This document shows positions 18,034 to 19,644 of a DNA stretch of 42,014 nucleotides, piece after piece; within the stretch, counting starts at the first letter, position 1; each line of letters starts with the position of its first letter. The stretch is from positions 1 through 42,014 of the forward strand of contig CALCKX010000062.1 in NCBI GenBank assembly GCA_937966115.1, given 5' to 3'. Under the pieces are notes generated by a model. The model had not been told where the DNA came from and made no database searches. It saw only the letters and a list, made by a program, of their open reading frames with translations. The DNA is from an uncultured Chloracidobacterium sp. (GTDB lineage Bacteria > Acidobacteriota > Blastocatellia > Chloracidobacteriales > Chloracidobacteriaceae). The position numbers were made by a program, and so were the translations under genes.

Positions 18034-18837
18034 TCAGGCGCGCGCGCCATCTAAGCGCCGGTAGGGCGATACGGCGTGCTGGAAGAACATCCAGCCGATT
18101 AGAAAGGCGATGAAGACCCCCGCCCAGCCCATCGTGGCTTCGCCAATCCAGAACGCGATGGCGATGTTGAAGGCGAAGATCCCAAAGTAAACGCCCAGCG
18201 GAGCGACCGGCTGGAACGGAAACGCGAAAGCGCCGCGCCGCGCGACGTTCCGCAGCGCAGTCGCGTCGAGCAGCCGGAAGCTGGTCGTGATCAACACGCT
18301 CACGACGAACCATCCTAGGTAGTTCTCAATCGTGACCCCGAAGTGCGGCCCGCCACTGGGGTAATCATACAGCTTCCCCAGAAACCACCGCTCGCCCTGG
18401 AGCGTCACGGGGTCAATCACGATGTCGAGAAACATCATCAGGAGTCCGGCGTAAAGGATGGTCAGCCACGACTGCCGAGCGGCGGCGTCATCGGAAGCCG
18501 CCCGCCCTGAAGCCCACGGCGTTCGCAGGATGACGGCCGCCTCGAAGCTGACGAAGGACAGAAAGGCGAATGACAGCGAATCGAAAAACGGCACGCCGGC
18601 CACCCACAGCTCGCGGTCGCTCGTGTGGTCGAAGTAGCGATACAGCCCGAAGGGAAATCCGTTGCGGACGGAGTTCCACTCGCAGGCGAAGGCGATGAAG
18701 TAAGCCAAAGCCGTCCAGACGACCGTCCGCGCCCACCCCATCCGCGCCACCGCCAGAAAAAGATAGGCCAGCAAAAAGACAAAGACATAGGGACGCATCA
18801 TCAGCGTCCCCGCCAGCAGTTGCGGCAAGTTGGTCAT
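18034..18837 (-). CDS. cruF: CruF-type carotenoid 1',2'-hydratase (DUF422 membrane protein)
   Basis: CruF adds water to the psi end of gamma-carotene-type carotenoids, making hydroxy derivatives that are then glycosylated. The 267-residue protein has about seven hydrophobic helices and the DUF422 hallmarks NGFPFGLYRYFD, LDIVIDPVTLQGERWF and GPHFGVTIENYLGWFVVS. Its ATG overlaps the TGA of the preceding selenoprotein-like gene as ATGA, so translation is probably coupled. OH-gamma-carotene derivatives are known from Chloracidobacterium, as I recall. C50 carotenoid hydratases of the same superfamily are the alternative. Confidence 0.88.
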   Translation of the reverse strand: MTNLPQLLAGTLMMRPYVFVFLLAYLFLAVARMGWARTVVWTALAYFIAFACEWNSVRNGFPFGLYRYFDHTSDRELWVAGVPFFDSLSFAFLSFVSFEAAVILRTPWASGRAASDDAAARQSWLTILYAGLLMMFLDIVIDPVTLQGERWFLGKLYDYPSGGPHFGVTIENYLGWFVVSVLITTSFRLLDATALRNVARRGAFAFPFQPVAPLGVYFGIFAFNIAIAFWIGEATMGWAGVFIAFLIGWMFFQHAVSPYRRLDGARA

Positions 18838-19565
18838 GGTCGGAAGTCGCGCGCGAGCGGCAGCGGCTCATCCGTCGTCAGCAACGCCAGCGCCGCCAGG
18901 ATGACGCGCCGCTGGAGCGCCGGATCGTTTGGCGCGCCCAGCGGGTAGCCCAGCGGGAACGGGACGCAGAGCGCGCGCGGCGGGCGGACTCTCTCGGTGA
19001 CGAAGCGATAGAGCGAGATTGAAACCGTCACGATGCCTTCGTTTTCGAATGCGGCTTGAATCAGTCCGACCGACTGATTGCACATGGGTCAGACAGGGGT
19101 GAGCAGGGCGACATCCACCCCGTCGGCCCGCGCTTGGCGGGCGGCCTCCGGCGCGGTGTGGCTGATGAGCGCGCCCGGCTTGGCAATCGAGCCGCAGAAC
19201 GACCAGGCCCGCCCGTTCAGCCTTCCAATCGCGCCCTCGGACGCCAGCTCCCGAAAGCGGCTCGTCGGCAGGGCCAAATTGGGGTCGCGCTCGATGCCCG
19301 TATGGTCAAACGAAGGGCTGACGTGCCCGACCCTGAGCGTCGCCAAGTCAACCTCGGTCGGAATGACGCGAAACGACGGATCGCCCGCCAGCTTGAGCTC
19401 GAAGCCCGGCTGCGTCGGCAGGTGAAATGCCGCCGTCGTGACGAGACCGACATTGCACTCGGCAAGCGGCTTGGTCAGGCGCGCGGGCTGCCAGCTCGAT
19501 ACCGTATAGCGATACGCCCGCATAAACGACCGCACGAGCAGGCTGGCGTCGGAAAGCTCCGCCAT
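18834..19565 (-). CDS. GrdB/PrdB-like selenoprotein (putative Sec at UGA 19089-19091)
   Basis: Two open frames in the same phase, split by one TGA, make a single 243-residue protein of the glycine/sarcosine/D-proline reductase selenoprotein B-like family. The start ATG at 19565 has AAGGAG 9 nt upstream. The N-terminal half runs MAELSDASLLVRSFMRAY, CNVGLVTTAAFHLP, GHVSPSFDHTGIERDPNLALP and VDVALLTPV. TGA is residue 159, followed by PMCNQSVGLIQAAFENEGI, so the redox motif reads U-P-M-C. Cysteine homologues in other bacteria, as I recall, read CPVCH/NQ at this place. A SECIS-like hairpin follows. Function is likely a thiol/selenol oxidoreductase of unknown substrate. Alternatives are a pseudogene or a sequencing error, both less likely given the hairpin. 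Confidence 0.82.
19059..19091 (-). promoter_or_regulatory. Putative bacterial SECIS element after in-frame UGA
   Basis: On the minus strand the UGA (19091-19089) is followed by nine bases and then AAUCAGUC (19079-19072), loop GGUCG (19071-19067) and GACUGAUU (19066-19059). The stem is 8 bp and perfect; the apical loop has the GGUC seen in the E. coli fdhF SECIS, and starts 18 bases after UGA, almost the same distance as in fdhF. Such a hairpin binds SelB and recruits Sec-tRNA. Candidate status rests on structure and position only. Confidence 0.78.
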
Positions 19566-19644
19566 GGGCAAACGCTCCTTCCTCAGGATCGGGCTTGGTC
19601 GGGGCCAGGGCGGCCCGGCCGCGCCCAAGCCAAACACTACACGC

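Follow-up and report, generated by a model that had tools for sequence, protein, structure and literature searches.

A gene of an uncultured Chloracidobacterium sp., seemingly interrupted by a stop codon, almost certainly codes as a single unit for a selenium-containing redox protein related to PrdB, a subunit of bacterial proline reductase. It was found in the window, that is, the whole stretch of 42,014 nucleotides analyzed here, and is coded on the minus strand, running from 19565 to 18834; the original prediction gave no strand. As had been predicted, two frames of one phase were separated by a single TGA (19089-19091), which is codon 159 of 243. Translation with TGA as U gave the predicted full length of 243 residues with no other internal TGA, and the expected U-P-M-C motif was present in the context LLTPV-U-P-M-C-NQSVGLIQAAF. 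The features of the gene are listed in Table 1.

We consider it highly probable that the product is one PrdB/GrdB-related selenoprotein of 243 residues with hairpin-directed selenocysteine (Sec), likely stand-alone and probably not a reductase subunit. In the proposed mechanism, SelB with Sec-tRNA(Sec), steered by the hairpin after codon 159, would insert selenocysteine at the UGA; the gene for SelB itself would fall in an assembly gap. Judging from its U-x-x-C motif, the protein most likely acts alone, as a thiol/selenol oxidoreductase or as an enzyme of reductive cleavage that draws on a cellular thiol, and in Chloracidobacterium it probably does not serve as a subunit in a complex for D-proline or glycine reduction.

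Table 1. Features of the selenoprotein locus, with positions in the window.
Feature	Position	Strand	Basis and remarks
PrdB-like selenoprotein gene	18834..19565	minus	243 codons and TGA stop, Sec at codon 159; frame, PrdB profile match, homologues
In-frame UGA, predicted selenocysteine codon (U159 in U-P-M-C)	19089..19091	minus	Conserved TGA in homologues
Likely ribosome-binding site AGGAAGGAG	19575..19583	minus	9 nt before ATG; direct reading of the sequence
Predicted bacterial SECIS hairpin	19059..19079	minus	8-bp stem, loop GGUCG at 19071-19067
Downstream carotenoid biosynthesis gene (PF04240)	18034..18837	minus	Pfam 70.7 bits (cut-off 25); probable operon partner

PrdB selenoproteins with a UxxC motif and their Sec decoding are already known, and the window gene adds a well-supported member. 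PMC13188914 counts PrdB among the known selenoprotein families with UxxC. The marine metagenome studies report PrdB genes with Sec in U-x-x-C, 42 of them in the Sargasso data (PMC1088965); for GOS the figure is 235 PrdB selenoprotein sequences, with 110 Cys homologues in addition (PMC2398784). By description alone, these Sec-containing U-x-x-C proteins are perhaps the nearest described group; the GOS set includes Cys homologues, whereas TGA was found in all 80 loci kept here. For Acidobacteria, a 2006 count gave three families and four selenoproteins (PMC1794560), and the available part of the deep-Sep paper contains one acidobacterium and no mention of PrdB. Among the literature matches listed, judged from the listings, none linked Chloracidobacterium to selenoproteins, and a search for literature on Poribacteria with a selenoprotein returned none. 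The present gene gives the light-using acidobacterium Chloracidobacterium a selenoprotein with comparatively good support, and an annotation ending at the UGA would drop its likely active site.

Gene organization

The stop codon of the selenoprotein gene overlaps the start of the PF04240 gene as ATGA in the window and in all five genus-mates fetched. In one genus-mate (G005) this pair was kept, and the other annotated window neighbors tested were not found in the 19.5 kb fetched. Adjacent genes that were scanned differed between lineages, including RecX, an EF-P domain protein, peptidase M1, a permease, MsrB, and others. Since PF04240 was seen in the genus alone and the neighbors elsewhere varied, the link between the two genes is local.

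The overlap is also what would be expected if the UGA served as a selenium switch, with low selenium causing termination at the UGA and either the short product or a weaker coupling to the carotenoid gene being functional; decoding of UGA is generally known to depend on selenium supply. The PF04240 gene was not found, however, in six stretches outside the genus (L159-L164), and no sign of regulation was seen. A switch of this kind is unlikely.

Protein family and predicted function

The best NCBIfam match of the protein was PrdB (TIGR04483; E 2e-34), covering residues 28-230 across the UGA and including the U-x-x-C motif, with a score of 119 bits that lies below the equivalog cut-off of 300. 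The protein resembles PrdB in length (243 residues vs 238 model positions) and in the U-x-x-C motif common to both; it differs in scoring far below the PrdB cut-off and in that the partner subunit was not found in the genus. Two GrdB profiles matched with their C-terminal portions, Pfam GRDB (PF07355; 20.4 bits vs cut-off 22, residues 81-156) and TIGR01918 (32.1 bits vs cut-off 65.45, residues 84-232). Unlike GrdB, the protein is shorter than the 431-position model, falls below both cut-offs, and has no PF09338 gene accompanying it in the genus.

A search for PrdA with TIGR04480 found none in the source genome, in a run in which no positive control scored. For this reason PF09338, which we take to cover PrdA and which was positive in two relatives, was used for the PrdA/GrdE-type partner subunit. 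PF09338 was found in none of the seven genomes of the genus and in two of 39 genomes overall (G016 and G028). No prd genes were found among the neighbors scanned or compared. With scores below the curated cut-offs and no Grd/Prd partner in the genus, the name "proline reductase" is unsupported; the originally proposed kinship with GrdB/PrdB is supported, and the enzyme name should not be transferred to this protein. The PrdB profile as top match and the U-x-x-C motif would also suit a true PrdB subunit of D-proline reductase, or a GrdB-type subunit, but given the shortfall in score, the lack of a PF09338 match in the genus, and the lack of prd genes among the neighbors scanned or compared, such a subunit is very unlikely here.

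A confident AlphaFold model of the protein showed an alpha/beta fold (pLDDT 89.9) with a strand (152-156) and a helix (160-175) around U159-C162, so that Sec is located where the helix begins, following the beta strand. A helix start after a strand is a usual place for a redox motif. A PDB search by sequence matched no chain, and a fold search matched none with an E of 0.001 or lower. The protein is most likely a stand-alone UxxC thiol/selenol oxidoreductase. A more specific reading, to which we give even chances, is that it represents a stand-alone, perhaps Sec-only PrdB/GrdB branch with a new selenol-based reductive activity, on neither proline nor glycine and with no pyruvoyl partner; such a branch would extend over Acidobacteriota, the phototrophic genus included, and Poribacteria.

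Conservation of the in-frame UGA

A TGA was found at the same place in all six genus-mates (85-90% identity), and each of the next 10 homology matches (45-58% identity) contained exactly one in-frame TGA. A search of genome_contigs matched 144 stretches, 108 of which encoded relatives, and 80 loci were kept, mostly from Acidobacteriota and Poribacteria records. Nine of these were genes already in the set of genus-mates and next matches, and 71 were additional. All 80 carried TGA at the Sec place, even though Cys codons were required by one of the two patterns used for the search. In a survey of the phylum, 100 of 396 genomes matched at 1e-30 or better. The best 57 of 120 listed matches all contained in-frame TGA (one in 56, two in one), and among the other 63 listed, 17 had TGA and 46 had none; these survey figures refer to TGA in frame, with its position confirmed just in the loci read individually, the 80 genome_contigs loci among them. 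Where relatives lacking TGA were read, Ser occupied the Sec place in seven and Cys in one. In view of the TGA in every genome_contigs locus read and the lack of a reductase partner in the genus, it is doubtful whether such genes should be labeled "proline reductase".

In a comparison of six genus members, the codons that precede the UGA had a pN/pS of 0.167 and those that follow it one of 0.101. Purifying selection past the UGA implies that the downstream part is translated in the same frame. Comparison strongly supports selenocysteine at the UGA, as the original prediction had proposed, in that the TGA column is conserved, homologues extend past it, both halves are under selection, and the stem of the hairpin covaries (see below).

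An ATG is located 3 bases past the UGA in the window gene, as a scheme with two products, termination at the UGA followed by restart at this ATG, would need. The residue at the ATG place, however, was Met in 55 of the 80 loci and Leu, Val, Thr, Ile, or Phe in the others, while the UGA was kept in all 80, and the PrdB profile match spans the UGA; two separate products are highly improbable. The source assembly is a draft of 2.8 Mb in 151 contigs and 85% complete, so that a sequencing error, the true codon being TGC or TGT, might be suspected, or else a recent pseudogene with a dead second half. Both are scarcely credible beside the same TGA in the genus-mates and genome_contigs loci, whose conservation shows that it is not a local sequence error, and beside the low pN/pS after it.

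Selenocysteine machinery

Chloracidobacterium is a phototrophic acidobacterium, and its use of selenocysteine, proposed from the window, gained support from the rest of the source genome. A gene for tRNA-Sec (selC) was identified with 64.7 bits (cut-off 47) and an ARAGORN anticodon of tca, and selA (512 bits) and selD (383 bits) were above their cut-offs. No selB over cut-off was found in this 85%-complete assembly, so that three of the four predicted sel genes were located there and the fourth was recovered only from relatives, including all six genus-mates. Overall, selB over cut-off was present in 36 of 39 genomes. By this cut-off it was missing from three genomes, each of which carries the UGA gene: the source genome, G012, where a piece of selB occurs, and G030. 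As selB is near-universal among the 39 genomes, its presence alone does not single out those with the UGA gene.

The genus-mate G002, with 90% identity, shares its match coordinates with NKPT01000015.1 of Chloracidobacterium sp. CP2_5A. The DNA beside selB in G002 matched contig C70 of the source assembly, with an inverted block (392-2707) and collinearity from 2768 on. Provided that the inversion is limited to this block, selB would be expected outside C70, past its start. The source assembly breaks near this expected site, at the C70 start, and at the end of contig C122, where a gene broken after 38 residues is presumably EF-Tu, named from its sequence start. As selB is missing here and present in all six genus-mates, an assembly gap is likely; it is the simple reading and no proof. 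Reading of the UGA as another residue such as Trp, through a changed code or general suppression, would likewise let the frame continue, but it is practically negligible, given that the window gene and the six genus-mates themselves terminate in TGA, that the TGA-less relatives read never have Trp at the Sec place, and that tRNA-Sec, selA, and selD occur in the source genome.

Predicted SECIS hairpin

The hairpin of the original prediction was present in all its parts: the UGA is followed by 9 bases and then by AAUCAGUC-GGUCG-GACUGAUU, which forms a perfect 8-bp stem with a 5-base loop, at a distance of 17 nt from UGA to loop. It was likened there to the SECIS of E. coli fdhF, which we take to be similar in the sequence of its loop and in its spacing from the UGA; compared with the fdhF element, the loop sequence is variable across the PrdB-like family studied here. 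Published limits for bacterial SECIS elements are a loop of 3-9 nt, an upper stem of 4-16 bp, G within the first two positions of the loop, a spacing of 16-37 nt between UGA and loop, and an MFE at or below -7.5 (PMC13188914, section 5). The window hairpin falls within all four limits (5-nt loop with 8 bp, GG, 17 nt, and -13.0 kcal/mol over 52 nt), and its stem is kept and covaries in homologues, in agreement with the predicted SECIS function.

Folding of the window sequence by itself is weak evidence, and comparison decides. Of 200 dinucleotide shuffles, 29 were equally stable (z -1.19), and among 2000 synonymous recodings of the window gene 1.65% were equally stable and 2.55% had an equally long stem. 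When the UxxC homologues (L019-L035, n = 17) were tested against synonymous recoding, 15 of 17 reached 5% or better by energy; for L031 and L033 none of 2000 recodings reached the hairpin energy, and the two that missed the level were L030 (10.8%) and L034 (5.8%). By stem length alone, seven of the 17 reached 5%.

Covariation of the stem was tested with 500 shuffles on 16 aligned rows, among which 15 sequences were distinct. Pairing was kept in 90.8% of pair cells, two-sided change was seen in 13 cells, and a covariation score of 0.337 was obtained; none of the 500 shuffles equaled any of these values. Sliding the stem partners reduced pairing to 42.5% or lower. The number of pairs with two-sided change (three; 283 of 500 shuffles as high) and of further pair types (six; 450 of 500 as high) was not above the shuffles in this alignment. 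Three of the eight stem pairs were invariant, and the outermost pair failed in nine of the 15 sequences. Among the six genus members, pS in the hairpin region (codons 163-173) was 0.27, compared with 0.54 in codons 174-243, and the RNA seems to be under extra constraint at the SECIS.

Of the 8 stem pairs, between 6 and 8 were kept in 73 of the genome_contigs loci (mean 7.07), and the loops tallied in these loci were all N-G-U-N-N; the remaining seven loci kept 6 or 7 pairs. G was found within the first two loop places in all 80. The -7.5 kcal/mol limit was reached by 58 of the 80 loci and missed by 22 when the 30-nt hairpin was folded, and was reached by 79 of the 80 over 51 nt. Four more distant UGA homologues (L036, L045, L046, and L048) did not show the hairpin, and another (L047) had a 7-bp stem in a shifted register (5.3% in the synonymous test). 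Rfam gave no match at gathering scores over the whole window, and at a loose threshold on the gene only it gave one chance-level match, with no SECIS family.

Relatives and their gene neighborhoods

In a tree of 46 rows, the Chloracidobacterium copies were placed together with Bryobacterales and further rows in a group of 14 (support 97/94), apart from the other UxxC rows of their own class, a placement that suggests transfer or old paralogy. The seven Ser-type rows (L037-L043; family f4 of the class), in which Ser stands at the Sec position and the second Cys is kept (A-S-R-L-C), formed one supported group in this tree. A PrdB-like homologue with two in-frame TGA codons (L036; G017:C91:14965-15570) reads U-P-I-U, a UxxU motif that apparently contains two selenocysteines. 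In G016 and G028, two relatives in the class, GrdB-like genes with in-frame TGA (L047, L149-L152) were found beside PF09338 genes, and these look like true Grd/Prd-type loci in acidobacteria.

One gene family flanked 40 of the 80 genome_contigs loci (for example L108, 4963-5988), and its scanned member was a GFO/IDH/MocA oxidoreductase. Genes of this family often lay on both sides of the selenoprotein gene and on the same strand (79 of 79 members), and the members shown were from Poribacteria records. In a locus from a record labeled Candidatus Brocadia (L129, 6001-7319), an MsrB gene with a SelR domain was found within about 10 nt after the selenoprotein gene. This adjacency is a possible hint at a thiol-repair role, in a bin whose label may be wrong.
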